Part shown: one piece after another, positions 14,601 to 52,320 of the stretch
Position numbering within the stretch: the first letter of the stretch is position 1
Layout of the letters: the number at the start of each line of letters is the position of its first letter
DNA from: Siphonodentalium dalli
Lineage: Eukaryota; Mollusca; Scaphopoda; Gadilida; Siphonodentaliidae
Length of the DNA: 64,000 nt
Direction of reading: 5' to 3'
NCBI GenBank assembly: GCA_032622095.1
Contig: CP136062.1
Coordinates: forward strand, 155,864,875-155,928,874
Program-made: the position numbers and the translations under genes
Notes under the pieces: model-generated
What the model was told of the DNA's origin: nothing
The model's database searches: none
The model's input: the letters and a program-made list of their open reading frames with translations, nothing else

Positions 14601-17600
14601 TGCTCGTTGCGAGGTGTGAATTGGGAGTCTGGCGGTGTAGAACCTTCACAAATGGCGGGGCAACATGTGTCGTATATACTGATTTGTAATTGGTGGAAGA
14701 AATTAATCTATTTGCCCGCATGCTGAAAAAACAAATTCTTTAAATACAAATTTGTTGAAAATAATCAAGGATTTTGATTTGAGTTGCCTGCTCCTATAAA
14801 TTTTATCTAGACTAATGGCATTGAAATATTATATTGTACGAAATTTACCAACACTGACTGATATGCCAAGCACCAGAACAACATGTATGGCATCAATTGA
14901 ACAGGGATTAAACAAAGATGGTGGAAAAAGAGTCATGAGCTATTTTAGAATCTGGATATCCAGCATTTCTCTACGATGTACAACTCAACTTGAGCAACCT
15001 GGGTATATGCTGCTCAACTTTAAACAACTAGGATATATACCGTATACTATATGCACCGTTTGGTGGAAATCGACTAGTCCGACGACAAGTAAAACCAATT
15101 TAATTAAACAGTGGTGGTGTAGAAAGTGGGGGTGACTGAACATAGCTGCTGTTATGACAAATTCATATTAACATACGAACATGTCACTGAATATAGTTGG
15201 GTGTCACGACCTTAGGAAAACATCAAATTTGAATCTCTGAAAGATGACAATAACTCTAACCATAACTCTAACCGGAACGCGACCTCAATCCTAACCCGAA
15301 CCGGTATGGGACGGTACCCTAACACTAACGAGGACGGAACCGTACCATAACACAAACCGAGACGGGACCATAAACTGATCCGTAACTCTAACAGGGATAC
15401 GACGGGACCTTAAGCATAATCCTAACCGGGACGGGACCTTCGTCCGGGCGGAACAATCGGAACCGAACCATAACTCTAACCATAACTCGGGGCAAACATC
15501 AAATTTGAATCCCTGGAAGATGACGTGGGGCAGAAACAAAATACTGATTTCCAAACATGACAATAAAGAGACAGTTTCAACATATGTTTATATTACATGA
15601 GTTTAATCCGTAACATGATACGGACATATACGTTCAGAAGAGATATCCGTCATGGCTACTGGTTGAAGTGGTTACTTCAAATAAACGAGATAAATCACTA
15701 CCATGACTAATCTACGATATGAGCATCACATTGAATCCTGATAATAAAGGAATATGAGAACGGTAACATGGGAATATGGACATCGAGGTGTTATCCTGTA
15801 ATCAGGTAAGATTTAATCTAGTAATTAATGAGGACCTATGTTGACATTTCTGCTCAAATTTTATTTCAATGAATTATGTTTAAGGAGACTAATTACCACC
15901 ACCCAACTACCACATACAAGTTCGAACTGATTTATGATAATATATTCCACGCACAGGAACAATTATTCAAAACATTACTATTTATGGTTTTGCGCAATCA
16001 TTCCGAAACTCGTTCTGTATGTGACTAGTTCGTATCTATAGTAAAATATATAAGTTTACTGAACCAATTCGATAGTGTTTCGTGTAATGTTGTCGTTGGT
16101 AGCTATATAATATTATACAGATACATACCATTGTTGGAAGGTTATACTATACAGTTCTAGTTTGATGTAAGCAGATCACTCAACAAAAATATTGCCATGA
16201 TGTTGAGTTGTTAACTTATTACACACTATAACAATAATTTAAGTTCGCTGGAAAATCAGGTTACTCAATGAGGAAGCCTACAACTGTAAGAGTTTACGCT
16301 TACCTGGTTGTTCTCCCTTTTACAGAATATGGTTCCAACTCATGACTGCGAAATCTACGTAGTTGTCTACTCGCGAGGAGACCGGAAGTCCTTTCGCCAC
16401 GCAATTGACATCCTGTTCCATTTGCGCCGAGTGAGCAAAGTCACCAAGCCCATCATTTTGGTGGAGAACAAGTGCGATCTTGTCCGGACAAAGGTCATCG
16501 CCGCCGGAGGTGAGTACCGTGTCTTTGCCAAACACTGAATTACTAGTAGTTTCCGAATGAAATGTTCAGATAAGTTCTACAACCGGCCAGTGTAGAACCT
16601 ATTTTCTGAACATTATATATAGGTATGACTCATCTGCACTTGTATTATATGTTCGTCTGTCGTCTGCTAATAATATGTCATTCCAATATATACTGTTATA
16701 CCTGATGGGAGAAACTATTTTGTGATGACATGGTTAACATCTCCATGGACAGTTTATTACATATATTATTTCAGATGTTCTAGCAATGGGTCAATATCTT
16801 CAAAAGTTTAAATATGTTCACTAGACGCACAAAACACTTAAATATACTTTACCTAGATCCAGCTATGTATGGGGCCATCTCCAACTCTCTTCAATAGAAT
16901 ATATGCAATAAATTAATGAATTTGAGTCGTCGTACATGAGTGAAAAAAAACAGTAATTTAGTCTATTACATCGCCCATGAAGAGTATGTACTGTCGCAAA
17001 GGGAGATAAATCATGAGTCAGAAATAAGCTAAATGTTTTTGAGCAGAAATAACAATTCTAAATTAAATTGAACGTGAGTTGAATCCTTGTGAACATCTGC
17101 AGTACACCGGTTTATCACATAATTAACCGTTAACCCCGTCCCAATGTTTTAGTAAGACACACGTGTATTATCGCTGCGCGCAGTGACGTAAGGGCTTATA
17201 TCAATGGTGTCGAAGCCAATTCGGGGACTTTATTATTATGTTAAACATAATGTAATTACGATATTCGATTTTTGTTGCGTTATTTAGTGTTGGGTGTGAG
17301 ATAACATGGTTGATACGGGTTGTTGACAAAATTGTTCAACATGAAAAGACACATTTGAAATTAAATATATTCGCTCTTGAATGTGCGTTTACATCATATT
17401 TGGTTGTGATAAGGAACCCAATATTAATTTGGTTAATCCCAGCCTTTTCGATGTCGTTTTTCCTCGCGTATGTGTGACTGTGATAAAATGGATCTTAAAT
17501 TCGTCGCCTTTCTATGCGAATTGTATTATTCCAATAAATTCGATTCTAGCCTCACAAAAGCTCGGTTCGAATATAATTTAGTGCACTGGGTTGATTACTT

Positions 17601-18134
17601 TCGTATACATGTGCGACTCATTAGATATCCTCTATGTTTCAAGTTGTTCTTTTGTAGGAAAATTGTTTTGACTTGAAAATCAGGAAGTGGTGTTTTGGAA
17701 GAAAGAGTGCCAAATTGCAAAATGGTATCCTCTCTGACAAATGCACAATTGTTTGCGCTCTATAATTACACTAGAGTTGCAGTGAATCCACAATTGTTAT
17801 GATGCTGCTTTCTTTATGAAATATTTACTTTGTGAATTTGTTTCCATGGCCTCCGATGTTGAAACAAGCTACCTCTGCCCCTCCTTGACATTCATTTTAA
17901 CTTTCGAATGTCTCTTTTTTTACAGAAGGGAAAAAAGTCGCCCTGTCATACAACTGCAAATTTGTGGAGACATCGACACTCTTCCATCACAACGTGGATG
18001 AGTTGTTGGTCGGTATTCATAAACAAAACTCTTTGCACAACAACGCTCGAACAGGCTCAGGGAGGAAGATGAAGGCACTTTTACCACGCATTTTCAAGAG
18101 TAAAGCATCCTGTGAAAATTTGATGAAATTATAA
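8341..18134 (+). CDS. RGK-family (Rad/Gem/Kir-like) small GTPase, four-exon gene model
   Basis: Joining 8341-8665, 11008-11096, 16326-16509 and 17926-18134 gives 807 bases: 268 codons plus TAA, with consistent intron phases (1, 0, 1) and GT-AG ends. The N-terminus is serine-rich (residues 36-61). The G domain has a P-loop, GSHGVGKT (82-89), VENKCDLVR with the guanine-specifying NKxD (186-189), and ETS (214-216). It lacks a CAAX box and ends SCENLMKL, with a cysteine exactly seven from the end, the RGK signature. Family members are plasma-membrane-associated GTPases that inhibit voltage-gated calcium channels and act on the cytoskeleton; that role is inferred. The usual RGK G3 motif DxWE is not recognisable: exon 2 reads CFNEELTHQ there. 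Usual family length is about 270-310 residues. The start has a good context (AAA before ATG). Exons 3-4 are duplicated at 33829-35637. Confidence 0.88.
8666..11007 (+). other. Intron 1 of the RGK-like gene
   Basis: 2.3-kb phase-1 intron with donor GTTGGT and acceptor TATATTCCAG. It contains a hairpin repeat at 9707-9763 related to one in intron 3. No other gene or RNA recognised; the open frames at 8955-9194 and 9700-9924 lack support. Confidence 0.7.
9707..9763. repeat. Intronic hairpin repeat, family H, copy 1
   Basis: Two 23-base arms around an 11-base loop pair with three mismatches (GTTCAGACAATAAG on the left, CTTATTATCTGGAC on the right). The flanking TGAAATGTTCAGA and the arm sequence resemble the hairpin in intron 3 at 16561-16614, so this is a small dispersed hairpin family. 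Mobile origin is inferred. Confidence 0.6.
11008..11096 (+). CDS. RGK-like GTPase coding exon 2
   Basis: 89-bp exon between ATTCCAG and CAG|GTATGA, in frame from exon 1 (phase 1) to exon 3 (phase 0). It encodes the end of codon 109 and residues 110-138: an acidic start (DDDDN), then SVMLNGEQVWQCF, NEELTHQ. VMLNGEQ aligns with the beta strand before G3 in Rad/Gem, but the DxWE motif expected after it is missing. Its small size and match of phases on both sides support a real exon; transcript confirmation is lacking. Confidence 0.78.
11413..11474. repeat. Hairpin with 18-bp perfect stem
   Basis: GAGTGGAATTGTGGTTTT and its exact reverse complement flank a 26-base spacer. The spacer begins CCACGAG and the sequence after the right arm completes CTCGTGG, so a second pairing is also possible. 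Single copy in the window. Possibly a MITE or transposon-end hairpin. Confidence 0.7.
12230..12420 (+). repeat. Diverged intronic direct repeat, copy 1
   Basis: Matches 13670-13875 about 1.45 kb downstream, from AAAACAAATTT through GCCACTGTTT to TCTCAATACAC and CATATCC/CACATCC. Similarity is well below that of the large duplications, so this pair is old. No coding content. Confidence 0.55.
13670..13875 (+). repeat. Diverged intronic direct repeat, copy 2
   Basis: Partner of 12230-12420; the upstream parts (from about 12045 and 13400) also share short blocks, so the duplicated unit may be longer but is poorly conserved. Confidence 0.55.
15218..15524 (+). repeat. Minisatellite island flanked by 31-bp direct repeats
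   Basis: About 245 bp of degenerate CTCTAACC / GGGACGGGACC units, the same sequence type as the large arrays at 18900 and 36403. It is bracketed by direct repeats at 15218-15248 and 15494-15524 (29 of 31 bases equal, starting AAACATCAAATTTGAAT). It lies just outside unit A, 170 bp upstream of the duplication breakpoint. Confidence 0.8.
16326..16509 (+). CDS. RGK-like GTPase coding exon 3 (unit A)
   Basis: Acceptor TTTTACAG, donor GAG|GTGAGT. Encodes residues 139-199 plus one base of codon 200: IYVVVYSRGDRKSF (beta-4 and following helix, as in Rad VIVYSxTDxxSF), HLRRVSK, and PIILVENKCDLVR with the NKxD box. Together with exon 4 this is the part of the gene present twice. Residue 196 is Ile here and Asn in unit B. 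Confidence 0.9.
16510..17925 (+). other. Intron 3 of the RGK-like gene (unit A)
   Basis: 1.4-kb phase-1 intron with consensus GTGAGT donor and pyrimidine-rich TTTTTTTACAG acceptor. It holds the family H hairpin at 16561-16614. Frames at 17381-17676 and 17816-18001 are overlaps with intron and exon 4 in the wrong frame. Confidence 0.75.
16561..16614. repeat. Intronic hairpin repeat, family H, copy 2 (unit A)
   Basis: AATGTTCAGATAAG and TTCTACA pair with TGTAGAA and TTTTCTGAACATT across a short CGGCCAG loop. Preceded by the same CCxAATGA context as the intron 1 copy. Repeated in unit B at 34064-34117. Confidence 0.65.
17926..18134 (+). CDS. RGK-like GTPase terminal coding exon 4 (unit A)
   Basis: Encodes codons 200 (shared) to 268 and TAA: YNCKFVETST (G5 ETS), HHNVDELLVGI (C-terminal helix of the G domain), then a basic tail GRKMKALLPRIFKSKAS and final CENLMKL. 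Basic tails of RGK proteins mediate phosphoinositide and membrane binding in place of lipidation. Unit B differs by one silent base (GCT/GCG). Confidence 0.93.
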
Positions 18135-18483
18135 TTTATCAGTCACCTGTTCAGCAACATTCAGAGTATGAAATGATGTTATTATAACAATTGTTATATA
18201 TTTATCATCGGTTATGTGAGATCGTGTAGCACGAGTGCTGTGTGGTAATGTGTTATCTTTGTCAGTGTTGAGAAGGAAACATGTATACCATTTTAAACAG
18301 AGAATACTTGAAGCTAAAAACCATATCCTGTCATCCATTTGTAACTCAGATATATTCAAATCGAAATTATTCAAAATCATGGAATCATATGTTGTACACT
18401 TAGCTGCATATATATATATAACATAAACGTAGCATATAACGTATGATTATTTTGTAAGTTATGGATAATTATGTATAGTCTGA

Positions 18484-18489
18484 AATAAA
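18484..18489 (+). terminator. Polyadenylation signal AATAAA (unit A)
   Basis: AATAAA 350 bp downstream of the stop codon, followed by AT-rich sequence and the ATC microsatellite. The best-placed signal for the 3' end of the gene; cleavage site not determined. Duplicated at 35987-35992. Confidence 0.6.
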
Positions 18490-18509
18490 ACTATATATCC
18501 ATGTAGAGC

Positions 18510-18641
18510 ATTATCATCATCACCATTATCACCGTTGTCATCATCATGGTCATTATCGTAATCATCATAACTGCTATCTGTTATCACAATCAACATCAAC
18601 ATCATCGCCGGCATCATCATATTCGTCGCCGTCGTCTTAAG
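18510..18641 (+). repeat. ATC-type microsatellite (unit A)
   Basis: Degenerate run of ATC/ATT/GTC triplets. The unit B copy is at 36013-36144 with at least one base difference (GTC to ATC). Confidence 0.8.
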
Positions 18642-18899
18642 TAATCACCACCAATTGTTTGGATTATATGAGCATTGACGGTTAACTATTTCGGTCGTAA
18701 ATATATCTACACGCGCTTCCATTCATCAAACGACGTGAATTCCGTTACTAATTCCTTATTGATCATTCGGCAAAATCCGAGAACGGTGGGAAATTACCTC
18801 TCATTCGTAAGCGGCCAACGGGGCCGAACACAATTAGGATCAGCTTTCAAAAAATGGCCTGAAAATGAGTTACCGCTCTGGTCTGTCAGGAAAATTTCG

Positions 18900-21800
18900 G
18901 GACCGGATGACTCGGAACTTTAACCAGGACAGGCGTGTTGGGGACCCTAAAGGGACGGGACAGTAATTCTAGCTGGACCCGGGCCGTGGCTATTAATCTA
19001 ACCGCGGGCGGGACAAATCGGTACCCTGACCCTAACCGGGGCGGGACGCGACTCTAACATTAACTGGGACGGGACCTTAGGCCTAACCCTAACCGGGGCG
19101 GCATCGTAACCCTAACACTGAACAGGACGACGCGGTATCCTAACCCTGACCGGACGGGACCATAAGTTGTATGTGGGTGTTCGGAACGGATTGTAACTTA
19201 ACCATAACCGAACCTGGGCCCTACCCCGGAGCGAAACGGTGCGGGACCCCAACCTTAACACAGACTGGACGAGACCGTAATTCTAGCTGGACCGTGACTC
19301 ATAGTTCTAACCGCGGACGGAACAAGTCGGGATCCTAACCGGGGCGGGACGAAACCCTAACTCTAACCGGGACGGGAAATAAAGCATAAACATAACCCTA
19401 ACGGCAGCTTAACTCTAAGACTGAACAGGCCTAGTCCGACCGGACGGGACCATAACCTTTATGTTGGGGTCGGAGTGACTGTAACTTTAACCCTAACCGG
19501 ATCGGGGCCCTATCCAGGAACTGAACGGGGCGGGGCCCTAAGCCAGGCAGGACGGGACCTTGACCCAACCCTGACGGGACATTAACACTAGCTACACCAA
19601 TAACCCTAAACCTAAACGGCACTGGACGGCTCTGAACGGGAATTTAACCCTAGCCCTAACCGAGACGTGACCATAACGCTAACCGTTAGGGGAACCCAAT
19701 ACTAACCGGGACGTGACCCCTGACCCTAACCCATTCGGGACGGGAGCTTAACCCTAACTCTAACCGGGACGGTTGGAACCTAACACTAACAATACTCGTA
19801 ACCTGATGGTGGATCCGGATGGTCCGTACATCGGACGGGACGAGCCGGGACCATAACAAGGAAGAGACGGGACCATAGGACGGTACCCTATCTCTAACCG
19901 GAACCCTAACCCTACCCCGGGGCGGAAGTCGGGGGAGGGACGTTAAAACTAATCATAACCATAACCGGGACGGCACCAGTCGGGGGCAATAACAATAACT
20001 GAAAAGAGGCCTTAAGCCTAACCACAAAGGGGATGGGACCTAAACCTTAATACGGACCAGAACGGGAGGTTAACATAACTACAACCGGGACTGGTGCTAA
20101 ACCCTAACCCGTACCGGACGGGCGGGATTCTAATTTGGATGTGGTGGTTCGGAACGGTACTGTAACATAATCATGTCGGGGGTCTGACACGGAAATTAAT
20201 TGGTCGGGACCCAAACACTACCAGGACGGGGCCTATGCCCCAACCCTGACCGTGACGGGACCTCAACCCTTGGCAAAACTATAACCCAAACCCTAAAGGG
20301 ACTGGACGGTTCGGGCGGGAACTTAAACACAACACAACTAACCTGGTCAGGGCCCTATCACTAACCGGCACGGAGCCTTAAACATAACCTTGGCGGGAGT
20401 TTAACCCTATCTGGTACGGGATGTTACTACAGTACTAACTGACAACAATCGTTACCTGGCGGGTAAACCCGACCGCGGACGGGACGAATCGGGACCCTAA
20501 CCAGGACGGCACCCTAACCTTTAACTGAACGTAACTGGTTGGAACGGGACCTTAACACTAAACGTAAACATAAAACTGGACGGGGCCAGAGGACCTGACG
20601 TTCACACTAACCATAACCGGGACTGTACGGCTCTGGGCTGGAATTTCACAATAACCATAACTGGGACGGGACCAGTCGGGACCCTAACACTAACCTGGAC
20701 TGGACCTTTGTCCGATTCCTAACTCGAACTTGGACGGGACCTTGAGCCTAACCCATAACCGGGAAGGGACGGGACCACAACAAGGGCGGTATCCTAACAG
20801 TAGCAAGAACTGGACGGATTGGAACGGGACCTTAACCCTAACCAGTACCCTAAACCGGGACCAGTGTCATGGGACGTCCGGGACGTTAACACTAACCTTA
20901 ACGATAACCCTAACCGGGACTGGACGGCTCTGAACTGGAACTTCACCAGAACCTGACTGCGACGAGACCAGTCGGATTCCTAACACTAACCGGGACTCGA
21001 CCTTAGAGCCATATCCCTAACTCTAACTTGGACGAAACATTGAACCTAACCTTAACCGGGACGGGAGCTTAACCCTGACAATAACCGGGGAGGTACCCCA
21101 AGCTGGACGTGGCGGGATGGGACCATAACTCTAACCCTAACCGGACGGGACGAGTCGGGAAACTAACCCGGGATGGAGAGAGACACTAACCCTACCAGAG
21201 TATGACCCTAACCATAACTGTGACTGGACGGCTCGGGAATGTAATTTAGGCCTAACACTAACCCTAACTGGGACGGACCCTACCACTAACCGAAACGTTA
21301 CGGTACCTTAAACCAACACCCAACTCAAACCGTGGCGGGATGGGGCTGGACCTTAAGCCTAACCTAATTATGAGTGGACCCTGACTCGAACCGCGACATG
21401 GTCTTAACCTTAGCTCTAACCGGGAGGGGACCGTAACACTATCCGAGATGTGACGGGACCGTAAACCGAGCCCTAACTCTAAGCGGGACTCGACATTAAA
21501 ACTAACTCTAGCTAATCCGGGGAGGATGGGACCTAACCCTAATCGGGACGGAACCGTAACCCTAATTCTAACAGGTACGGGACTCTAACCCTTACAGGAC
21601 GGGATGTAAACCTTAACCCTAACTGGTACTTGACCTTAAACCTAACTCTAAGCCGAACCGTGTAGGGACGGGCCCTTAACCATAACTCTAACCGGGACGG
21701 GACCTTTAGGTTCCCCTACCCAACCGCGGCGGTGTGTGCCGGCCCTTAATCCTACACTAATCCGAATGCCAGCGGGAGGACATTAAACCTATCTCTAATC

Positions 21801-22050
21801 CGAATCGGGGCGGGACGGGACCTTAACACTACCCATAACCGGGACGGGACTGGACCCACACACTGACCGTGACGGGATCCTAGTATGACAGGGATAGATC
21901 GAGATGGGACCTTTACACTATAGCACTAATCCTAAACGGGACAGGACGGGGCGGATCCTAACCCTAACTGGGACGGGACCCTAACCATAACCGGGATGGA
22001 CGGGATGGGACAGCGGGCGCGTGTAGTGACGGTGACGGGGCGCGCGGGCG
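18900..22050 (+). repeat. 3.1-kb telomere-like minisatellite array (unit A)
   Basis: Degenerate tandem units of roughly 20 bases, consensus near CCCTAACCGGGACGGGACC, with many interspersed CCCTAACCCTAA stretches identical to two telomere units. Both C-runs and G-runs lie on the same strand, so units can pair with each other. It starts about 410 bp after the polyadenylation signal. Unusual GC-rich island in AT-rich surroundings. Any open frame through it is low-complexity and not a protein. Confidence 0.92.
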
Positions 22051-24943
22051 GAGCAACTCGTAGTTGTGTTGGTTGGGGCGTCACTGTACGTCTGTTTTCG
22101 ACCAATTGGCACTGATGTTCTAATTTTTTCGGTCCAAATTATCGCCCCATGCACTTTCACTTCAATGTTCCAGACCGAGCATAGCAGCAACTCATATTCG
22201 GACACTTTTTGAAACTCGATCCAAATTTACTTCGGCTAAATCGAATTCTATCCAGCTATTATTTACATATACTTCTGAACACCTGATATATACATATTTT
22301 TTGTTTTGAACTATCAACGTTAGCGTTGTTAGCGTAATGAGAGCGGGTCTCAAGTTACAAAGAGCACATACTAATAACACTGTCAATGGCTACCGTTTTA
22401 AACCTGTTTACCCTGGAAGCCTATAACATTGTAGAGGTCGGTTGTTTATTATGACATCAAGGTGAACATATCCATACTGCACATGGCGTCACTTTATATT
22501 GCAACCAGTCTTTTCGCTTGCTTCTTGAATTAACGAACAGCAGAGGAATATCTGCTGGTTGCTTTCATGTTTTCATTTCAATTCAATATGTTGGGACGTT
22601 TGTACACCCGCAATCCGATATTTGACTAAGAGATGATTATAATTTTGCGTAGAAGTACAATTTAGTTTTATCTTATCGAATATGCCATTTCATTTTATGC
22701 CATTGTCTGATTTATTTGATTTATATTCGTGAATAATCCTGTGTCTTTCAATTGTTCTTGGCTGATAGCGATTCACGTGATTAGATTCATATATCTGTAT
22801 GTGGCTCATGTTATCGTTTCTACATTGTGTATCATGGTTTTGCATGCTTCAATATCTACTGGTTAATTTATTTTGGCTTTTATGTGTTAATTTCATTTCA
22901 TTCGAGTCTTTTGTAACGTACATAAATTGCCCACAACTCGATATTTGGCCAAGCGATTATTCAACTTTTGCATAGAAGTAAACTTTATTTTTTGAAAATA
23001 TCATTTTATCATGACATTCACTGATTTGTATGATTGTTATTCATGCGCTCTAAATAATCCTGTCACTTCCAATTGTCGATTCGTGATCTTGAATCACGAG
23101 ATCATATTCATATATTTGGCGATTGCTCAAGCCGATGTTCTATGTTTTCACGTTTACTACACATAGCGATTACGCAGACCAATGTTCTACATGTACGTTG
23201 TAATGCGTATTACATTATGTTGATTGTGTTCATGGTATACATTGTCCCGAATGTCCTTAACCAGACACCACATGTAAGCGAAAAATAAATTTGTCGGATC
23301 GGAATAATGGACTTTGTCTCACTTACTCCCTATGCATGGAAATTGCTTTAATAGGCATCAAACCAGTGACATTACATAACTACGGTCTTTACTTATTGTA
23401 TACAAATTAATAGAAGTTCAGTAAAAATAACTATAATTTGATTAAGTCTCTTTAATCCGTGTTATCGAAGAAAATATATCGTCAAATGTATAGCGTATTG
23501 GGGTACTATTACTTGTACAACCACTTATCTCACATATATCCTAGATTCGTTTCGTTTGCAACTGATGGTAAATTGTGTTCTTAGTATTTTGTTGAAAGGT
23601 AACTGATATGTATACTGTTGATACGTGCGGTTCCAGCTGGACTATACGCACCCCTGATCAAGACTTAGTGGTCCTGCTAATGTGATGTGATGTGATGCTG
23701 GTGGTCTCTGCTGAATTGCTATAATGCGATTCGGGCGAACTGATGCTGTTAAGACAAAGTACCGTTATTTTTCAAATGTTGTCATTTTCTGGGTGTATGG
23801 CTAATACGAGCGGTTTGGAATAAGACCAGTGCATGTTTGGAACATAAAAAACATAGACATTTTGAACAAATATAATAATGGCTGCTCTGGTGTTTGCAAA
23901 ACGATGTGAATTGCCATCTTGCTATAGTCGATTTGCCACAACTAGTACAACCAATATAAACATATCTCGCAATATATATGTGTTGGAATGTTTGATACAC
24001 ACAATGGCTTTTCATATTGCAGATTTTCCGAACGCCGCACAAACGACAATTTTAGAACAAATAACGTACATGTTCTTAACAGCGTAAATTTGCCATGACA
24101 GCATCTTAGCAATTCAACAGGGCCCACCAGCATCGCATCACATTGGCGGGACCAGTTGACCAGTTGTGATACTGTAATAGGATGAAACTTTAATGGTCTG
24201 ACTGTAATTGTGTTCGAGGGTACGCCAATACATGGGATTCGTTAATCAAATAATTTATTATTGCGACAGTTCTTTAATCTTAGTGTTCGATATTCCGAGA
24301 GTTCGATACTTAAGAATTTACAGCGACGTGGACATGAATAACAGTCGGGCCTCATCAACATAAAATAAATGTTCCCCGAGGCATCACCATGCGCAAAAGA
24401 ATCCCACCGGTATCAAATTTAAACACCATACATACATTTGGGAACAGACAATTAACACACGCGTATATATAATTGCGTAAATGATACACAAATATCCAAA
24501 TGTTTGTCTTTGTCGTGTCTTATACATGTATGTTACAACATATGTGACTTATTGGTGCTCTATATAAAGATTCACGTACATGCACGTGCGTGAGCGACAC
24601 ATACACGTGTAATAATTTAACGCGATGCTGAAACGGATGCCAGCTTCCGTATGTGAGGAAACTACATGCTATTCTGAAAGCTAGCGCGACCTACATGTAT
24701 ATTTACATATTCGCGACTTTCGGACTATCGAATAATCGTAATATCTAACTATCTGACAAACGAACTGCCTAATTTTTTCGTCATTTGACAAATATACAAC
24801 ATTCATATTTGAGAATAAGTGGGACAGTTGAAGCACAGGTCCCCAGATCAAAGATTTACTCCACCCCCAATAATACTTAATCCCATAGAAATGTATTCAA
24901 CTTGGCGGGGCCTAATTTTTATTTATTTTTTTCACTAAAAAAA
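22051..24943. other. AT-rich spacer with a diverged tandem repeat (unit A)
   Basis: No gene recognised. About 22600-22800 and 22920-23120 are diverged copies of one segment (about 323-bp period), sharing CGATATTTG, GTAGAAGTA, AATAATCCTGT and CACG.GAT blocks. The short ORFs at 23782-24133 overlap each other on opposite strands and have no recognisable domain. Confidence 0.6.
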
Positions 24944-25948
24944 CAGGTTCAAAATAGAAAACAAATATTTTTGTTACATAAAGGCCTCATATATACGTAG
25001 AAATATATTTTCTTACTCATCAATTTGATGTATCCCGTGTAAAAACATGGTCCAGAAAAACTCCTGTTATGAGCACAGGTCTGACGGAAACCGGCTGTTG
25101 AAATCCCTCGATCGAGATGGAGTCCGCTCAACTCGGTCAAAGAGCCGGATTTTGACCACACCGACTTGTGCTTCAAAAACGAACTAAACGGTAAGTAGAA
25201 TATATATATTATACATAATTAGAAGCGGAATCACGGCATCATATCTCTCGTATTTATTGAAATAATCAGTTTCATAAAACCGGAAGCAAATTTAAATTGT
25301 CCAAAACAAGCCATTTTGTAAGTAAGCACGTAACACTAATTTGTCATTGGTCCAATATAAATCAAATATATAACGAAGAAGTAATGTACATACGCTCTAA
25401 ATATTTACGAAGTTATATTCTTGTCCATGTGTATGTTTTCAAATCGGCATTCGTGTTAATTCAATCTTTATCTATTCTTTTCATTTTTTATAAATACATA
25501 TTGTGTTGCATAGAATTATAAATAGTACTCACGGCAGACTCGCATAAAATGGCTGGTTTTGGAAAATTTATATTTGCTTCCGAATTCATGAATCTGATTT
25601 TTTTCAATAAATACGAGAGATACGATGACGTGATGTGGCCAGATTGGTTTGGGTGTGTCAGTAATTAATTCCGCTTCTAATGATGTATAATATATATATT
25701 TTACTTAACGTTGAGAGTTTTTGAAGCGCAAGTCGGTGTAAAAATCCGACTCGCTGACCCAGTTTAGCGGGCACCATCTAGAACGAGTGATTTTAGCAGT
25801 CGGTTTGCTCCAGACCTGTGCTCATATCCGGAGTTTTTCTGAACCAATTTTACACGGCATACTTAAAATTGAAGAGTAATAAAATATCTTTCTACCTATA
25901 TATGAAGCATTTATGTTGCTAACATTATTTTTGTGTGTTTTGAACCTG
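24944..25948. mobile_element. Foldback element / long-TIR MITE (unit A)
   Basis: 1005-bp element beginning CAGGTTCAAAA and ending TTTTGAACCTG. Its two imperfect inverted arms are about 375-420 bp each, matching through GAGCACAGGTCTG, AAGTCGGTGT, ATATATATTATACAT, AGAAGCGGAAT, TCTCTCGTATTTATTGAA and GAAGCAAAT, around a central region of about 200 bp. No coding frame. A target-site duplication is not clear. Sits 77 bp from the Helitron-side spacer and is present identically in unit B. Confidence 0.85.
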
Positions 25949-26394
25949 TTTGTGGACTTTGAAAAAGTTATAACAAATTAGGGCCGTCCGCGTTCGATAC
26001 CTTTCTATTATAGGAAGAATATAGGGGCGGGGCATTTTTGTTTTTGTTCTGGCGACCTGTGAGTTAAAGATGCCCAAATTTGATAAAATACAAAATACAC
26101 CTAATGTGACAAAATACACAAAATTTGACAAAAACAAATCTTTGGAAACATAAGCATGGACGCTATCATAGACGATATTGGAATGTTTGCTAGACTGACC
26201 ACAGTCAAACGTGCTAAAAAGTTGCTCTTTTGAAATTCGACATTTGGCCATCAATACTTCATAATGATAATGAAGGGTTCGTTGTGCCATTCATTTTCGT
26301 GTATACAAACTGTGCATTTGAAGGTTGTTTGCTGTCAAACCGTCAGGGCATCTTTAAGTCATCGCTAGCAACGTTAGATGTCCTCACAAAACCT

Positions 26395-27780: not shown

Positions 27781-27959
27781 CTGTAGGCACTTTCCATTTC
27801 CGGGTATCTTAATTGAACCTGGTGTTTAAAATCTTCAGAAAAATCATCCCGTTATTGGTATAGTATTAAAGGATGACAAACTTCACATGTTTTGATGATA
27901 ATTGCAGAGAATTCGGAGGCTTGTTGCTGAATGCGATGCCGAAGCTTTCATTAAAGTTG

Positions 27960-35986: not shown

Positions 35987-35992
35987 AATAAA
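35987..35992 (+). terminator. Polyadenylation signal AATAAA (unit B)
   Basis: Counterpart of 18484-18489, 350 bp after the duplicated stop codon. Confidence 0.55.
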
Positions 35993-36012
35993 ACTATATA
36001 TCCATGTAGAGC

Positions 36013-39400: not shown

Positions 39401-39580
39401 CGGGACCCTAGTATAACAGGGATAGATCGAGATGGGACCTTTACACTATAGCACTAATCCTAAACGGGACAGGACGGGGCGGATCCTAACCCTAACTGGG
39501 ACGGGACCCTAACCATAACCGGTATGGACGGGATGGGACAGCGGGCGCGGGTAGTGACGGTAACGGGGCGCGCGGGCGGA
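36403..39580 (+). repeat. Telomere-like minisatellite array (unit B)
   Basis: Counterpart of 18900-22050. It aligns unit by unit, with point differences and one insertion of about 27 bp near 39369-39396. That the internal units have stayed in register shows little array turnover since the duplication. Confidence 0.92.
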
Positions 39581-40665: not shown

Positions 40666-41015
40666 TTCTATGTTTTCACGTTTACTACACATAGCGATTA
40701 CGCAGACCAATGTTCTACATGTACGTTGTAATGCGTATTACATTATGTTGATTGTGTTCATGGTATACATTGTCCCGAATGTCCTTAACCAGACACCACA
40801 TGTAAGCGAAAAATAAATTTGTCGGATCGGAATAATGGACTTCTATGTTTTCACGTTTACTACACATAGCGATTACGCAGACCAATGTTCTACATGTACG
40901 TTGTAATGCGTATTACATTATGTTGATTGTGTTCATGGTATACATTGTCCCGAATGTCCTTAACCAGACACCACATGTAAGCGAAAAATAAATTTGTCGG
41001 ATCGGAATAATGGAC
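40666..41015 (+). repeat. 175-bp tandem duplication private to unit B
   Basis: The segment 40666-40840, beginning TTCTATGTTTTCACG, is repeated immediately at 40841-41015 with no difference noted. Unit A has a single copy. The event therefore followed the A/B duplication, or arose on one haplotype. Confidence 0.9.
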
Positions 41016-42645
41016 TTTGTCTCACTTACTCCCTATGCATGGAAATTGCTTTAATAGGCATCAAACCAGTGACATTACATAACTACGGTCTTTACTTATT
41101 GTATACAAATTAATAGAAGTTCAGTAAAAATAACTATAATTTGATTAAGTCTCTTTAATCCGTGTTATCGAAGAAAATATATCGTCAAATGTATAGCGTA
41201 TTGGGGTACTATTACTTGTACAACCACTTATCTCACATATATCCTAGATTCGTTTCGTTTGCAACTGATGCTAAATTGTGTTCTTAGTATTTTGTTGAAA
41301 GGTAACTGATATGTATACTGTTGATACGTACGGTTCCAGCTGGACTATACGCACCCCTGATCAAGACTTAGTGGTCCTGCTAATGTGATGTGATGTGATG
41401 CTGGTGGTCTCTGCTGAATTGCTATAATACGATTCGGGCGAACTGATGCTGTTAAGACAAAGTACCGTTATTTTTCAAATGTTGTCATTTTCTGGGTGTA
41501 TGGCTAATACGAGCGGTTTGGAATAAGACCAGTGCATGTTTGGAACATAAAAAACATAGACATTTTGAACAAATATAATAATGGCTGCTCTGGTGTTTGC
41601 AAAACGATGTGAATTGCCATCTTGCTATAGTCGATTTGCCACAACTAGTACAACCAATATAAACATATCTCGCAATATATATGTGTTGGAATGTTTGATA
41701 CACACAATGGCTTTTCATATTGCAGATTTTCCGAACGCCGCACAAACGACAATTTTAGAACAAATAACGTACATGTTCTTAACAGCGTAAATTTGCCATG
41801 ACAGCATCTTAGCAATTCAACAGGGCCCACCAGCATCGCATCACATTGGCGGGACCAGTTGACCAGTTGTGATACTGTAATAGGATGAAACTTTAATGGT
41901 CTGACTGTAATTGTGTTCGAGGGTACGCCAATACATGGGATTCGTTAATCAAATAATTTATTATTGCGACAGTTCTTTAATCTTAGTGTTCGATATTCCG
42001 AGAGTTCGATACTTAAGAATTTACAGCGACGTGGACATGAATAACAGTCGGCCTCATCAACATAAAATAAATGTTCCCTGAGGCATCACCATGCGCAAAA
42101 GAATCCCACCGGTATCAAATTTAAACACCATACATACATTTGGGAACAGACAATTAACACACGCGTATATATAATTGCGTAAATGATACACAAATATCCA
42201 AATGTTTGTCTTTGTCGTGTCTTATACATGTATGTTACAACATATGTGACTTATTGGTGCTCTATATAAAGATTCACGTACATGCACGTGCGTGAGCGAC
42301 ACATACACGTGTAATAATTTAACGCGATGCTGAAACGGATGCCAGCTTCCGTATGTGAGGAAACTACATGCTATTCTGAAAGCTAGCGCGACCTACATGT
42401 ATATTTACATATTCGCGACTTTCGGACTATCGAATAATCGTAATATCTAACTATCTGACAAACGAACTGCCTAATTTTTTCGTCATTTGACAAATATACA
42501 ACATTCATATTTGAGAATAAGTGGGACAGTTGAAGCACAGGTCCCCAGATCAAAGATTTACTCCACCCACAATAATACTTAATCCCATAGAAATGTATTC
42601 AACTTGGCGGGGCCTAATTTTTATTTATTTTTTTCACTAAAAAAA

Positions 42646-43650
42646 CAGGTTCAAAATAGAAAACAAATATTTTTGTTACATAAAGGCCTCATATATACGT
42701 AGAAATATATTTTCTTACTCATCAATTTGATGTATCCCGTGTAAAAACATGGTCCAGAAAAACTCCTGTTATGAGCACAGGTCTGACGGAAACCGGCTGT
42801 TGAAATCCCTCGATCGAGATGGAGTCCGCTCAACTCGGTCAAAGAGCCGGATTTTGACCACACCGACTTGTGCTTCAAAAACGAACTAAACGGTAAGTAG
42901 AATATATATATTATACATAATTAGAAGCGGAATCACGGCATCATATCTCTCGTATTTATTGAAATAATCAGTTTCATAAAACCGGAAGCAAATTTAAATT
43001 GTCCAAAACAAGCCATTTTGTAAGTAAGCACGTAACACTAATTTGTCATTGGCCCAATATAAATCAAATATATAACGAAGAAGTAATGTACATACGCTCT
43101 AAATATTTACGAAGTTATATTCTTGTCCATGTGTATGTTTTCAAATCGCCATTCGTGTTAATTCAATCTTTATCTATTCTTTTCATTTTTTATAAATACA
43201 TATTGTGTTGCATAGAATTATAAATAGTACTCACGGCAGACTCGCATAAAATGGCTGGTTTTGGAAAATTTATATTTGCTTCCGAATTCATGAATCTGAT
43301 TTTTTTCAATAAATACGAGAGATACGATGACATGATGTGGCCAGATTGGTTTGGGTGTGTCAGTAATTAATTCCGCTTCTAATGATGTATAATATATATA
43401 TTTTACTTAACGTTGAGAGTTTTTGAAGCGCAAGTCGGTGTAAAAATCCGACTCGCTGACCCAGTTTAGCGGGCACCATCTAGAACGAGTGATTTTAGCA
43501 GTCGGTTTGCTCCAGACCTGTGCTCATATCCGGAGTTTTTCTGAACCAATTTTACACGGCATACTTAAAATTGAAGAGTAATAAAATATCTTTCTACCTA
43601 TATATGAAGCATTTATGTTGCTAACATTATTTTTGTGTGTTTTGAACCTG
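42646..43650. mobile_element. Foldback element / long-TIR MITE (unit B)
   Basis: Same 1005-bp length and ends as 24944-25948. A few base differences (for example GTCCAATA to GCCCAATA near 43051). Confidence 0.85.
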
Positions 43651-44099
43651 TTTGTGGACTTTGAAAAAGTTATAACAAATTAGGGCCGTCCGCGTTCGAT
43701 ACCTTTCTATTATAGGAAGAATATAGGGGCGGGGTATTTTTGTTTTTTTGTTCTGGCGACCTGTGAGTTAAAGATGCCCAAATTTGATAAAATACAAAAT
43801 ACACCTAATGTGACAAAATACACAAAATTTGACAAAAACAAATCTTTGGCAACATAAGCATGGACGCTATCATAGACGATATTGGAATGTTTGCTAGACT
43901 GACCACAGTCAAACGTGCTAAAAAGTTGCTCTTTTGAAATTCGACATTTGGCCATCAATACTTCATAATGATAATGCAGGGTTCGTTGTGCCATTCATTT
44001 TCGTGTATACAAACTGTGCATTTGAAGGTTGTTTGCTGTCAAACCGTCAGGGCATCTTTAAGTCATCGCTAGCAACGTTAGATGTCCTCACAAAACCTA

Positions 44100-47000
44100 A
44101 GTATACACAATGATGCGAGTCTTTCCAGTAGGAGCGTGGACGAACAAAGTATGAGGAGTTCCAACTCTAGAACATCCTACATACAGTTGTCCATGCGAAA
44201 ATTAAGACAGTTGTAAACAAACAACAAATACAGTTTGGCCTTGAGACTTATTAATTGAAATGGCATAGCTCAATTTTTGATTTTAGTTTCTTAAACCGAA
44301 ACGGAATGTCAGATGGTATGGGGGTGTGCATGGCATAAACACATATTCTCCCTTACCACAGCCAGGCAGAATAGTAGCCACAATGACATGCGCCAATAGC
44401 TTAGTGACCACCAGCCGTGTTCCGTTGAAAATGTTGCGCAGACGCATGGTTTTGCTCCTGCTTTCAGCCAAATATTGTGAAGAGGAAGACATGGTGGCTC
44501 TAATAAATTAAATTATGTGCGATAGGTGACAACCTCTGATGAATCTGTAACAACGTCAACTGATGTGTAGGAATGGGAGCTCCCGGGCATTTCATTAACA
44601 CGTTTGTTGTTGATGCTGTTCAGTCACAGACATTGGCGCAATAATTGCAAGTTTACATAGACAAGTAATGTTTTGATAGTGGTCGCGTAGGCTTGAGAAT
44701 ACACGTGAAACGGGGAAGGATCCACACACCATCATCGTCTAAAAACACTTTAGTTTCTCTAAGTTGTTGTAATGTTCGAGCGAACTGTGCGAAAGCTGGT
44801 TCCCATGGAGTTGTGCTCGCAGCGATTTATGGTTAACATGGTGCCGCAACGAAGACGACTTCACGCAAGCCTGGTTCCGTCAGCTTTCGTCCCCCTGGTA
44901 ATGACTGGTAAAGTTTGCCTAAAGTCACCAGACAACATGACAGTGAGTCTCCCCATTTGTGGATTTGTATCCCGTACGTCTTTTAATGTTATGTCAATTG
45001 CCTCCAATGCTCTGGTATGTGCCACTGTACATTCATCCCATACAATCATGTGTCACGTTCTGAAAAATTGCGCAAGTCCGGAAGTTTTGGAAATGTTGCA
45101 AACCGGAGCATCATTGGTGACCAAGTCCAAAGACAACTTAAAGGCAGAATGAGCTGTGGCAGCATTACCCGACGAAGCAACATGTTCGTGACGAAGTTTC
45201 CCCAGTTCCAGCAGGTGCATCGTGAAAACATATTCCTCCAGTATGAGATTGCACTCGACCGATGGTGGAATATGCTACCCTTTATTCGTGTAAAAGTTTT
45301 TTTTTCATTTTCATTAATGTATCCGACCAAAGAATCGATGTCGTTGAATGTTTGCCGTAATATCTCGTTGTCAGAATGTTCAGCTCGGTTCAGTTTGATG
45401 CCGACCAAGCGTATGCAGTCCTTTTCCCCGCAAAGCAATAACCATGTCTTCTATATCTATTAATGCGACAATGAAGACCTCATCACTGTAGGCACTTTCC
45501 ATTTCCGGGTATCTTAATTGAACCTGGTGTTTAAAATCTTCAGAAAAATCATCCCGTTATTGGTATAGTATTAAAGGATCACAAACTTCACATGTTTTGA
45601 TGATAATTGCAGAGAATTCAGAGGCTTGTTGCTGAATGCGATGCCGAAGCTTTCATTAAAGTTGCATTCCATTTGGTATCGTCTTCGAGCAGTTCGCGCT
45701 TAACGCATGCTTCTCGGTAAGTAGCGCATACGTCGCCATCCTCAATCCGGAGATCTGCAAACGAAGTTGGACAACTGACTTCACGTAGGAGTAGTCTTTA
45801 AAAAAACATGAATGTTGGTTGGGATGGACGGTGTGTACTCCATAAAGCAGTATCAAGTCTAATATCAGCATGATTGTCTAGAGCACCTCAGTTTCTTCAA
45901 GTTCATCTGTTGTTACACCACGTGTAGTTGGGTGGTATTGGGTTATAAAACAACGTTTGTGCAAAGGAATCATCTTGACACAGTTGAAAGAAACCCGTCA
46001 GTATAGTATCTCACGGTGATATTGCTGCGTTATCGGTGGGTAGAATAAACCCGCTGACCATTTTCCAACTGGACAGCAAGTTGTTGGATGGCAGGATGTC
46101 GTTCGTGGATTGGAAATCCAGATATCCTCCACAAAGCTTCATTGCTGCTTATATATCGGCCCATCGGGTATTGAGTAACTTCATCGTGGACATCTTGCTG
46201 ACGTGCATGCATAGCAGCATCCGATGTTTTGTTGTCGCCTTCGAGCAATTCGCGCTTAACACATGTTTCTCGATAAGTAACACAGACGATGCCATCCACA
46301 GTCCGGTGATCTGCAAAAACGTGGGAGGTGGAACCCTTGACTTCATGTAGTAGTCTTAAAAGGAAACATTCATGTTGGCTGGAATGGACGGTGTATAATC
46401 TCCCTATAGCAGTGTCGTGTCTAGTTAGAGCATTGTATTCTACAACAGAACCTCGTTTTCTTCTATTCCATCTGTTGTTACGCTACGTGCAATAGGATTG
46501 TACCTGGTGATAAAACAACGTTTGTGCCAAGGAATCTTCCTGACACAGTGCTATTGCCTGATTTGCAGCATTATCGGCGGTAAAATAAACCCGCTGACCA
46601 TTTTCCAAATGGACAGCAAACTGTTAGATGCCATGATGTTGTTAGTGGACTAAAATTTCAAATATCCCATAAAACCTTCATTGTTGTGTATATATCTGAT
46701 TGCTTTTAAACCACCGTCTCCAGGTCTCCTTCGCATGTAAGAAGGATACTCATCCTCGGCTGTTTTAGTCTCCAGAATAAACGATTCGAGGTACCGTTTC
46801 TTGCACTTATTGTCTTTCATGCACGGTGATTTGTGTTTATTGGAATTGAATGGACCGTGTACCATTATTTTGTGTCTCGACAATGTCGAAGAGCCATCTG
46901 TCTGTTGCAGGATATGGAAGCTCTGCCGATATGATGGTTTCAAGCTGGTTGGATTGAATTTTGGTGATGAGCCAAATCAAAATATGCGCATGCGGCAACG

Positions 47001-47915
47001 AATTATATGGTGGACTTTTGGCACCGCACTGGTCCGGCAATTTGGGACTTTGTCATGAGGTCCATTACTTTCAGTACTAGGTGGAATGTCAGTGAGATAA
47101 TGTCTGTGGACGTAAGTTTGACCAAGAAGAAGCTCACATTGTGTTTCCTTCCATTTTGAATTACATGTGATTGTTATAAGTAGATCGGATCGGTCGTAAT
47201 GCCGAACAAAGGTCATGGCATGAAATGACAGGCATAAAAGTCCATACAAGAGACGGTCTTTCTATAGTTTCACCTGCCTGTGGAATTCCAAAGTGATAAC
47301 CCTCTTCCCCATTCACAAACAACAGAGGATACAATAGGACATCATGCTATCTGTGTTTCGATGTTGCGTCTGAGATTATTATATCTGCATTTTAAAACAA
47401 TATCCCTGGTTTCATATACCCAACTAGTCACGATCACAGCTACTTCGTTGCATTACGGTGCATTAAAACGGCGAGCATGCTCTCCAGATTGAACATTGTC
47501 AGCATCAATGACGACTTCTTGTTCTTGTCTATGTGCACATTCCAAGGTGTACTTAGACCTTTGAACGATATTGGTTGAATGTAGCATGTTCTGTAATTTC
47601 ACAATGATATCAAATCGTGTTCCTTGGTTTCCGTTGTATCTACTCTGCGTCTGGCTCTGAGGATCTCGCACAAAGTAAAGTTGTAGATATCGAGGTTGTT
47701 CGTCAGGCAGCGGCTGGAGGGATCCGAATATGTGGTAAACCTGCCCTTGGACTTTATATATAGGCATACACCCTCCTTCCCCGTTGATATTGGGTCCTAT
47801 CGATGTCATCTGAACTGCGATATTATAGTTGAATGTTATTCAGAAAATGTTTCGATTCGGGCGTGGTGCCCACCAGAAGACAAATCAAAGGCTCCGGTGG
47901 TTCTAGACGCATGGT
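44100..47915 (-). mobile_element. Helitron remnant (unit B)
   Basis: Copy of 26395-30210 with the same broken Rep and helicase blocks, the same internal duplication and the same Walker A Lys-to-Glu change. So the element was already dead before the 17.5-kb duplication. The N-terminal frame here shows an added ATG (47809) from one base change. Confidence 0.92.
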
Positions 47916-48459
47916 TATTCTCATCGTTCAGATATGTACCCCACATAATATATAATATAAAAAAAACTGCTGTGTTGAGAGCCCCATGCTATTATAATTA
48001 AACTGTATAATTGAATAATGCGCATATCGATCTACAGAGGTACATATACGCGGTTCGTTCTAGATGAAACTTCCGAGCCGAACACTGAAACAAACGCAAA
48101 AAAATGTATTGATGTCAATTTTGCCCCCATTTGTGGCCAAATTATCCACCACATAATTAATTATGTTGTGCATCAGCGACACTTTTTAGAAACGTTTGTC
48201 TTATCTATTATGGTCTTAATCCAATTAACCGACACCAATTCCCGTTCAGTATATCATGTAGACGTCTACATATCAGTTTCTATGAAAATCGTTGAATTAG
48301 TTTTATCAATTGTGTTGCTCCTCGTCCGTGATATCAATTCCTGACCCAAAATGGAAGCCATCCGGAACATTTATGCTACGTCATTAGTGTTCGTATAGCA
48401 CATATATCTACATATACGTTTGGGGACATCCAGGATACAAATGTGTTGTCAATCTTGGT

Positions 48460-48920
48460 GGTTCGCCCCATCATTGACTTCGGCGGTGGAACTTTTGCAA
48501 CTTTAAATCATACCTTAAATTCCATGTACAATGGACATGACTATATATAGGTTTGGTGGAAATCTAAATTGACATCAGCAAAGCGTGTATCATGTTTGAG
48601 CTCTTTCACTGATGCACAACTGTGACATCGACTTTCTTATCCTTAAACCAAACCATTAGACTCCCTATAATCGATTACAGAATATTTTTTTTATAAATGT
48701 GTGGTCTGTGTCATTTGGGGACCTTTAAACTACACCATTAATGCCACTATGATGGAGCTGGCTAACGACTCGTCAACTTAGCATTTCAATAACCCCCAAG
48801 GCAAGTATGCAAGGATGACTCGCATTTAATGTCCACAAATTTGAAGGACAGCGAACGAAAGAAATGATTTATTCCACCGAGCCCGTTTCTTATACCATTG
48901 AATTGTATGATAAATGTGTT
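48460..48920 (-). repeat. LINE 3'-end fragment, inverted copy (unit B)
   Basis: Counterpart of 30755-31215. Confidence 0.7.
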
Positions 48921-50647
48921 TTGGGAGGTCTATTTTACTTTAAACAGTTAACCATATATACCGCGTTCATATATCTAATGGTGGTATCTTAATAACAGGG
49001 TCGTTTGATTCTATATTTTATGGAAATACTAATAATGCAACACGTTCGAAAGAGATTCATAGAATTGTGGGTTGTTGTTGCTGCTGAAAATGTTCATGGG
49101 GAGTGATAGACCATCAGTAATGATAACGATATGGTACAAGTCTGAGTTAAGAATAAGATTGGAATGGGCTTAGAGTAGTCATATCGGTTATCACAGGTAG
49201 AGTTTATAGTTTTGTTTAGAATGAGCTGTTAGTATTTTTGAATGACTCGGTGTACTCGCACCAACGGACTGAAGGCCGTTGGTACTTGCGCGAGTTATTG
49301 CTATATATCCATTGCTCTTGTTAGTCTGATAACATTGGATCATTCAACGTGGCAATTTACAAACTTAGTTGGCGAAATGCTTTGTCCTAGATATGTATAT
49401 ATGTACTTCTGCAACTTTGTACAGTGGGTTCGGGTGTTATATCAGGGGATCCACAAAGACACTTGTGAGTTGTCAAGTTGCAGGTATCATTTAATGACTG
49501 GAGAGGCGAATTCCTTTCGGATGTCGCTGATCATGAGGTAATGGTCGTTGTCCTCTATGTGTCCATATAATCAGTACGGGTGGTGGTCGGCGATGAAATG
49601 TGTGTATGTGTGATCATTTAAATCACTGCAGTTGAGTCTGGGGCGGGTGTGGTTAATATGTGTTTGCCTGGTATTAGCTTCATAATAATGTTGGTTAACT
49701 CCCTGGTCCCCATTTAGGAACTCTGTAAATTATGCCAGGGATGCATAACTTGTTTCGTTGTGGTCGATATTATTCCATAGGTCTATTGTTGACGGAATTG
49801 AAGGCAGCGGAGCCGAACGTCGAGGCTTGGGGGAATTGGCCTGTCGGGTCTAAACATTTGTTATTTGAAAGCTTGTTGGGGTATCAGAGGCTTGCCGGAC
49901 ATCATTTTGTTCCCACCCGGTTTCCTTGTCATCGGAGAAACTTTGAGCCTTCGCAGCAACGTTACTTTTGGTGTGAACTATCGATCTTTTCCAAGAGGGT
50001 GGTATTTTCAATTGATCTGGGTGGAATAGTTTGGTTAGGGATCTTCTTCCTGGATTATATGGTACGGTCGTTGGTTGGGGTATTCATGAGGTTATTCACT
50101 TTCTCATAAATTAAAATTTTTATGAAGTATCGGCTCGTTTGCCTACATTGGTGCTCGGCGTAATCAATCATGTATTGTTTGTCATTTTTGTTTGCTGATG
50201 TTTGGTATTCTTCTTAATAGTTTTGTGTGCATGGGTTTCACGTTGTTCATCTCTACTTTGAGGTGATTTGCGCACTCTGTAGTAGATTGCATAGCTGATT
50301 TAAAGAAAACCTTATGAATGCATAGATGTATTGACAGCCATAGTTTGTACGTTTCGGATGACATAGCATATTGTTTGTGTCGCCGCCGTCATCCCGGATT
50401 TGTGAACATCTGGCCACTTCCATAGCCGTCGATCGCACATGAGTAGTAGGTCCTCGGTCGATCGAGATTTGGGAGGCCGTCTGACCAAGTCAAGTGACGA
50501 AATGTCCTTTCTTTTTGTTGTAATTGAACTGTATATCATATTATTACTCATTTTACCTTGTGGGTCTGCAGTTGTATTCCGTTTTCCCGGATACTTAGTT
50601 TATATACTGTCTATTGCACGGAAGCGAGGAATATCGTCCAGAGAACT
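48921..50647. other. Unrecognised stretch of unit B
   Basis: Counterpart of 31216-32941. No recognisable gene. Confidence 0.4.
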
Positions 50648-52320
50648 ACGATGTTAGGTATCAGTAAAATTTGGCGGATGGTCAATCTTTCGTTTTTTTA
50701 GTTGCCAAATGAAAATAAAAGCAGATGATCGACAACTATCCCAGCAGACACCTCGGACTACCCATCGAATTATGGTCGGGCCAAAGACTGGTACATAGCC
50801 GGAGCGGTGACCCGTTAGTCATTGCTTATACCAGCCTCTTGGTACATCACCACAATGAGACAGGCGTTAGCAGTACACTGTTGAAACATTTATAAGTCAT
50901 GAAGACGAAATTAACGGCGCAACATACATGATAAACAGAACACACAACTAGATACCAGAAAAAAAAAATAACAGGTGGCAGAAATTTAATCTGAAACACT
51001 GTGAGTGTCGTGACTAGCCGATTGATTGAGCCGGATCAACTCAACCACCCGTATTGAAGAGATGTAGAACCAAAGAGGACCATGAGCTAAGCCATTACCA
51101 CAGGTCGATGTCTCACTTGACACGGCTGCCCTAGTATTCACAGAACTCCTGCACCACACATCAAGGGATGCACCCCTCGGCAAAAGTGGACCACTTTAGG
51201 GTAAATCTTTACGGGATTCTTAATAAGTGAACCTATTCTACCCGGGTCCATACGGGGATGATTTCTTTATTATGATCAATTGGCAGCAAGCAATACAAAA
51301 ATAGTGGTATATGTGGAGACAAATAAGTGTTGATAGAGATCACATGGTGAATATCCATGCACTCCCAATGGCGATTCCTCAATAAATCACCCGAATAGCC
51401 TAAAGTGAAATGGGTTTTGTATCAGATGCTGAAATGCGTCTACGATTATGTTAACTTGTCGGATTGCAATAGCTGTTCAACATAATTATAACAAGGCAAT
51501 TTTGAAAGTCACATGTGAAACTAAAGACAAACTATGCATAGATGTCTGAAATATCAGAGCTCATGGAACTATGTATGATATGACACTGATATGGACAGGA
51601 ATGTCACCCCAATAGCCTCGGGTGGTATTCCGTTCTCGATCGGGCGATACACATCCGCGTTGCACTCAAGCACTAGCGACAACTGTATACTGTACTTACA
51701 TATTTGCCCAAACACGTCTCGTCTTGCTCTCGTTTCCATCGATCACACCTACGCGACTATATATATAAAGAACCATATTCGACATTGGTATGCGACTTAT
51801 GCAAGATGGCATATTAACGATGTATCCATCGGCGGCATGAATGTGGCAATAATTATTCCTCCAATACCCATCTTACAATTGGGTATACATAAGGACTTGA
51901 TAAAGCATACTGAGGTGTGAGATGATAACATAAGAGAGGATAGCACAAGTCTGAGTATTTTAAGTCCTCTCCTCGAAGTTTTTCAGTCTTCTAGAACCAA
52001 GAGCGTTTGGTGGGAAGATTCCATTGCACGATATTTGAAAGTAGAAATAATTCATCACATTGCTCTTTTAAATTTTACAATTATTTTGTCCTTTAACGTA
52101 CATATATAATGAACTAACTTGTGTCCCTTCTCTGGTATGCAGTCAGCAACAACCTGCTAAACCGAGGGGTGACATGTGACATTGGCATCCGGTGTATGTT
52201 GTACAGCTGAAATGCGGGCATATAACTATACTTCAGTAATGCAGAATATTAACTCACCAGTACAAGGTTACAGTCCGTTACACCCTATTTCCCAGAACAA
52301 AGTACCAGTGGTGTACGCTT
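50648..52320 (-). repeat. Repeat R1, copy spanning the right end of unit B
   Basis: Matches 2290-3990 and 58480-60010 at several percent divergence. The unit B boundary (50903) lies inside it. The minus strand keeps an open frame starting METRARRDVFGQICKYS near 51740 that is shared with the other complete copies. The match ends near 52320; the reverse-transcriptase fragment that follows R1 in the flank copies is absent here. Confidence 0.8.

Follow-up and report, generated by a model that had tools for sequence, protein, structure and literature searches.

The window analysed here is a stretch of 64,000 nucleotides (C2:155864875-155928874) in a genome of 2.23 Gb assembled in 9 contigs, and it contains no N. 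Models for molluscan haemocyanin (PF14830) and arthropod cuticle (PF00379) matched nothing, but all 14 controls were equally silent, and this negative carries little weight. The window carries one gene of four exons, the last two of which are present twice (Table 1). The gene model rests on frame, splice signals and conservation, and exon 2 was located by comparison with diverged paralogues. Around the putative promoter, positions 8200-8281 share 90% identity with a diverged paralogue on C7. Splicing of exons 1 and 2 onto exons 3 and 4 of the first copy (unit A) would yield a single RGK-type protein of 268 residues, and the exons of the second copy (unit B) give a product of the same length.

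Table 1. Features of the window (positions counted from its first nucleotide)
Feature	Position	Strand	Basis
TATAAA upstream of exon 1; putative promoter element	8231..8236	+	comparison with paralogue, pattern search
Exon 1: Ser-rich N-terminus and P-loop (G1, GSHGVGKT, residue 82)	8341..8665	+	exon searches, frame
Exon 2: switch region; AG/GT in 40/40 array copies examined	11008..11096	+	comparison with paralogues
Approximate exchange point in intron 2	13500..14000	.	divergence between the window gene and the A'B' gene
Unit A, first 17.5-kb copy: end of intron 2, exons 3-4, downstream DNA	15695..33197	+	self-comparison, alignment
Exon 3 of A: G4 NKCD, Ile196	16326..16509	+	exon search, splice signals
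Exon 4 of A: G5 ETST, C-terminal Cys at -7, stop	17926..18134	+	exon search, splice signals
AATAAA after exon 4 of A (search pattern AATAAA/ATTAAA)	18484..18489	+	pattern search
A/B junction; AA (2 bp) common at the break, no long homology	33197..33198	.	sequence comparison
Unit B, second copy: 99.6% identity to A; exons 1-2 lacking	33198..50903	+	self-comparison, alignment, blastn
Exon 3 of B: Asn196	33829..34012	+	exon search, splice signals
Exon 4 of B	35429..35637	+	exon search, splice signals
Poly(A) signal after exon 4 of B, position as in A	35987..35992	+	pattern search
175-bp perfect tandem doubling; present in B and B', absent from A and A'	40666..41017	+	alignment
Unit spacer up to the next gene copy	50904..64000	+	spacer marker search

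The half-gene repeat and its predicted product

Comparison of the window with itself reveals two head-to-tail copies, and their alignment bears out the 17.5-kb tandem duplication of the 3' half of the gene that had been proposed from the sequence alone. Over 17,501 aligned bases, A and B differ by 69 substitutions (0.39%) and 7 indels, the largest of 26 and 175 bp, which agrees with the earlier description of nearly identical units separated by single bases, small indels and one 175-bp event. In the window, blastn places exons 3 and 4 at two positions each and exons 1 and 2 at a single position each, again as first described; AG/GT signals, the stop codon and one AATAAA are retained in both units, so that the intact splice sites, stop and polyadenylation signal noted earlier are indeed all present. 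The sole difference between the two products is residue 196, which is Ile in A (codon at 16498) and Asn in B (codon at 34001). Such a half-gene repeat is far beyond chance expectation.

Other repeats are interspersed in the window. An 82-85% identical repeat lies at 2297-3865, 32954-33186, 50660-52241 and 58490-59898, and the right ends of A and B fall inside it. Short tandem runs with periods of 23-34 bp, in which telomere-like CCCTAAC is mixed with GGGACGG, occupy 15314-15369, 19702-21996 and 36556-39387. A fragment of a PIF1-type helicase is found on the minus strand of each unit (27159-27347 in A, with a Pfam PIF1 match of 5.1e-14, and 44864-45052 in B), surrounded by other open minus-strand pieces; these fragments resemble what we take to be a decayed Helitron.

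The closest solved relatives of the predicted protein, over its residues 74-248, are GEM (PDB 2cjw; 3.9e-22) and RAD (2gjs; 9.2e-22). Among the 17 PDB sequences with E <= 1e-12, the ten best are GEM, RAD, REM1 and REM2 (3.9e-22 to 1.6e-14), in line with the RGK identity first suggested; the best match outside the family, RAP2A (2.8e-14), is near the value of REM2. Like RGK proteins, the product has a long N-terminus and keeps G4 (Asn and Lys conserved; NKCD at 186) and G5 (Glu and Ser conserved; ETST at 214, with Thr instead of Ala as its last residue). In G1 (GSHGVGKT, residue 82), Thr stands for the Ser of the published GXXGXGKS (PMC4081519). The G3 motif DXWE was not found in the product, whose exon 2 reads NGEQVWQCFNEE; this motif is described as fading in all protostome sequences (PMC4081519), and it is therefore not family-defining outside vertebrates. 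With Gem residue numbers derived from the alignment to GEM, the counterparts of R196 and H225 are kept (R192 and H221). Unlike Gem, the product has Phe219 at the counterpart of Val223, a position at which binding is maintained by several hydrophobic residues (PMC4081519), and its NKCD is preceded by Glu, in place of the Gly seen in Gem and in two relatives from this genome. At the C-terminus, Cys -7, Glu -6, Leu -4 and Leu -1 are kept, and the residue at -6 is acidic, as in the protostome RGKs of PMC4081519, which gives no more than a hint of a protostome. The strict 11-residue C-terminal pattern given there, [KR][SAF][KR][SH]C[HNED][DNEV][LM]x[VSA]L, is not matched by the product, in which 4 of the 10 fixed positions fail and the basic KSK is shifted by one. 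Taken by its best match and by most, not all, of the family marks, the predicted protein is thus nearest to the RGK type. It would bind nucleotide, with the greater part of the CaV-beta contact residues present as well as a membrane-end motif.

A 2-Mb array of RGK-type genes

The window lies within an array of about 2 Mb that comprises 41 exon-1 loci of the same gene. The sequence-only reading was right about the half-gene duplication and missed this array, most of which is outside the window. Exon-by-exon searches of C2:155.04-157.01 Mb found 41 loci for exon 1, 40 for exon 2, at least 44 for exon 3 and at least 43 for exon 4; all first-look candidates were scored for exons 1 and 2, and 150 of 170 for exons 3 and 4, which makes the latter two counts lower bounds. 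The array has 37 genes in one orientation and four in the other, the four inverted copies lying at one end (C2:155.07-155.20 Mb). The 37 plus-strand genes comprise 32 with the exon order 1-2-3-4, three with an additional exon 3-4 set and two from which exons are missing. Their spacing ranges from 28.3 to 141.3 kb (median 39.5 kb), with 11 of 36 gaps within 38.0-39.2 kb. For the window gene and a second gene with an A/B pair, the gap to the next gene is 56.2 and 56.3 kb, an excess over the commonest value of about one 17.5-17.7-kb unit. The duplicated stretch is part of a repeat unit present about 40 times in the array, and a spacer marker (51000-51600) gave 40 scored matches, the best 40 of 1,931 candidates, every one of them inside the array. 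Exon 1 of the next gene begins about 0.5 kb beyond the window end (C2:155929419; region C2:155929300-155929850) and has lost part of its coding sequence, with a broken frame. The third gene with an extra exon 3-4 set, at 156288649, carries it 14.5 kb on; this different spacing points to a probably separate event.

More diverged clusters are found on C7 (130.3-130.9, 166.1-166.3 and 168.3-168.7 Mb), C3 (285.1 Mb) and C2 (213 and 215 Mb), together with a few weaker matches and two lone relatives, at C7:112.16-112.21 Mb (exon 1 identity 58%) and C2:146.09-146.22 Mb (46%). In one relative, at C7:168557100-168586100, intron 2 harbours a tandem series of 3.69-kb units (94-98% identity) and, with them, incomplete copies of exon 2, four in number (168563571, 168567249, 168570937 and 168574624); its neighbours have one or two such incomplete copies. 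The window is thus not the only place where these genes have undergone internal duplication. An array of this type is also hard to assemble, so its copy number and order may be partly wrong.

Frames are intact in 36 of the 41 exon-1 loci, with predicted products of 251-269 residues. Thirty-nine loci were modelled, and 35 of them gave complete intact frames encoding 32 distinct proteins; the gene at 156604821 is additionally intact when no distance limit is applied. The two loci left unmodelled, 155232056 and 155929523, have a broken exon 1, in two fragments each counted as one locus. The remaining non-intact loci are 155828504 (without exon 2), 156417444 (without exons 3-4) and 156797530, where exon 3 lies 33 kb on and the frame is shifted. 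AG/GT signals flank exon 3 in all 43 copies and exon 2 in all 40, and the GT donor of exon 1 is present in 38 of 39. Exon 3-4 cassettes are intact in 42 of 43 cases, a set to which the orphan exon 3 at 155035816, with an internal stop, does not belong.

Over the 595 pairs formed by 35 genes, pS is 0.040 and pN 0.014 (ratio 0.35), and pN/pS ranges by exon from 0.17 in exon 2 to 0.48 in exon 4. The mean difference in intron 3 among copies is 1.5% (this and the cassette distances use 42 cassettes, one with an intron 3 of more than 2 kb being omitted), which is close to the pN of 1.4%, and coding differences from the consensus amount to 10.7 per gene against 7.9 expected from intron 3. For these two reasons, the constraint that the array copies appear to be under is graded as only moderate. 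Synonymous sites, at 4.0%, differ more among the copies than intron 3 does. A neutral expectation of 46% intact frames was set aside, since it assumes independent copies, which the members of an array are not. Two gene classes can be recognized, full (22 genes) and with a shortened exon 1 (13 genes), and the residues linked to them run from exon 1 to exon 4.

A second A/B pair and the order of events

The A/B pair recurs 360 kb away as a pair referred to here as A'B'. The 401-bp sequence of the A/B junction is identical at C2:155538201-155538601, and these two are the only full-length junction matches among the best 40 of 1,569 candidates. A and A' differ by 29 substitutions (0.17%) and B and B' by 23 (0.13%), compared with 69 between A and B and 77 between A' and B'. 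Forty-seven informative sites support the grouping of A with A' and of B with B', and none supports either other grouping; five indels, including those of 26 and 175 bp, likewise separate B and B' from A and A'. Together, these sites and indels indicate that the tandem duplication predates the copying of the pair.

These data bear directly on the possibility, raised in the sequence-only reading, that the assembler set two haplotypes of a single stretch side by side as A and B. A divergence of 0.39% is compatible with heterozygosity, and the region is repetitive. However, the same base-exact junction and the same A/B differences, with five shared indels, are found at two loci, the second beside a diverged 5' flank, so the assembler would have had to make an identical base-exact error twice; nor does the window contain any N. 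A simple artefact of two haplotypes is therefore quite unlikely. A larger false duplication could have produced the A'B' block, but one A/B pair would be left even so. More generally, a search for the same join elsewhere in an array offers a way, independent of reads, to judge whether a near-identical tandem pair is a haplotype artefact.

The copied block has a recognizable left limit. Between the window gene and the A'B' gene, divergence is 1.65% (91/5,503) to the left of 13.5 kb and 0.13% (64/49,282) to the right, and this drop at 13.5-14.0 kb places the start of the block inside intron 2, such that the two A/B genes carry different 5' halves. In agreement with this, the cassettes A, B, A' and B' are mutually nearest (2-6 substitutions, the next being at 10 or more). 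In the coding 5' half, the window gene has 0 substitutions relative to the gene at 155111744, the A'B' gene is nearest to three other genes, at one substitution each, and the two A/B genes are four substitutions apart. With only four coding bases separating them there, it is mainly the switch in intron 2 that supports different halves.

Exchange in intron 2 appears to give genes new pairings of halves without shuffling them freely. The correlation between 5' and 3' half distances is r = 0.73 over 35 genes, which reflects the fact that the two gene classes stay linked, and r = 0.30 over the 22 full-length genes. It could be proposed that B is kept as a gene-conversion donor that reassorts 3' halves among array genes, and both the intron 2 switch, with halves that have different nearest relatives, and the weak correlation within the full-length class are consistent with this. 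However, exchange is a by-product of any tandem array, nothing marks B as a preferred donor, and the linkage of the two classes over all 35 genes goes against it, which makes this role very unlikely.

The sequence of the assembly directly shows the array, both occurrences of the duplication and the order of events. The 17.5-kb copies are very probably (about 85%) the outcome of a real tandem duplication by which one gene of the RGK-type array gained a second 3' half (exons 3-4 and flanks). In a first step, A and B arose in tandem; since only 2 bp are common at the join, end-joining or replication slippage would fit this step better than recombination between repeats. The A/B block was then copied into another unit, with the switch point in intron 2, and the join would have spread in the array by unequal crossing-over or conversion.

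The role of unit B and known systems

Neither exon 1, exon 2 nor the upstream stretch 8200-8340 has a copy that could be found for B. It is most likely a recent orphan 3' half, presumably promoterless, and would be either silent or a rarely used alternative end with a near-identical product. The first reading had raised the possibility of alternative terminal-exon cassettes. In such a scheme, exon 2 would be joined to exons 3-4 of either A or B to give two proteins. The exon 3-4 frames are intact in B and B', the poly(A) signal is kept in B, and a second exon 3-4 set is present in 3 of the 37 plus-strand genes, all of which would suit this arrangement. Against it, the products differ by one residue; Asn196 occurs in B alone among 43 cassettes (1/43) and is Ile in its sister B', which means that B has no conserved protein difference. 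The private changes of the other two units are Leu-to-Val in B' and Gln-to-Lys in A'. In addition, the stop and poly(A) signal of A come before B, and the pair is too young for constraint on B to show. Alternative cassettes are therefore unsupported and, in our view, unlikely.

For a tandem array, a duplication of 17.5 kb is nothing unusual; what deserves notice is the array around it. A tentative reading, possible though doubtful, is that the RGK family, described elsewhere with few members in each animal, has been amplified to about 40 array copies and smaller clusters, mostly intact, and that exchange in intron 2 reassorts their halves, with 3' halves such as B enlarging the pool, to yield diversified or dosage-tuned calcium-channel regulators. 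Under this hypothesis, the 5' half would contribute the N-terminus and P-loop, and the 3' half guanine binding, the CaV-beta contact and the membrane end. The array copies are natural variants of the switch and CaV-beta surfaces. The authors of PMC4081519 put forward, as a speculation, an intolerance of high RGK gene dosage, along with a case that weakens this idea; 41 array loci, 36 of them with intact frames, offer a direct test of it. No description of an RGK array was found among the papers that literature searches listed, as judged by titles and the starts of abstracts.

Partial tandem duplications of the 3' half of a gene arise by end-joining, slippage or unequal exchange. The window has their usual traits (a head-to-tail local copy, a promoter end left behind and 2-bp microhomology) and departs from a plain case in that the array contains the duplication at two places, whose 5' flanks differ. 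The dozens of RGK copies contrast with the four vertebrate and three Drosophila genes named in PMC4081519. Lineage-specific tandem arrays of invertebrate GTPase genes offer a further comparison. An expansion-prone GTPase family is also represented by the AIG genes of Biomphalaria, for which the term tandem array is likewise used (PMC7053062); the family is a different one, and the array described here extends over about 2 Mb, with spacings of 28-141 kb and a median of 39.5 kb.
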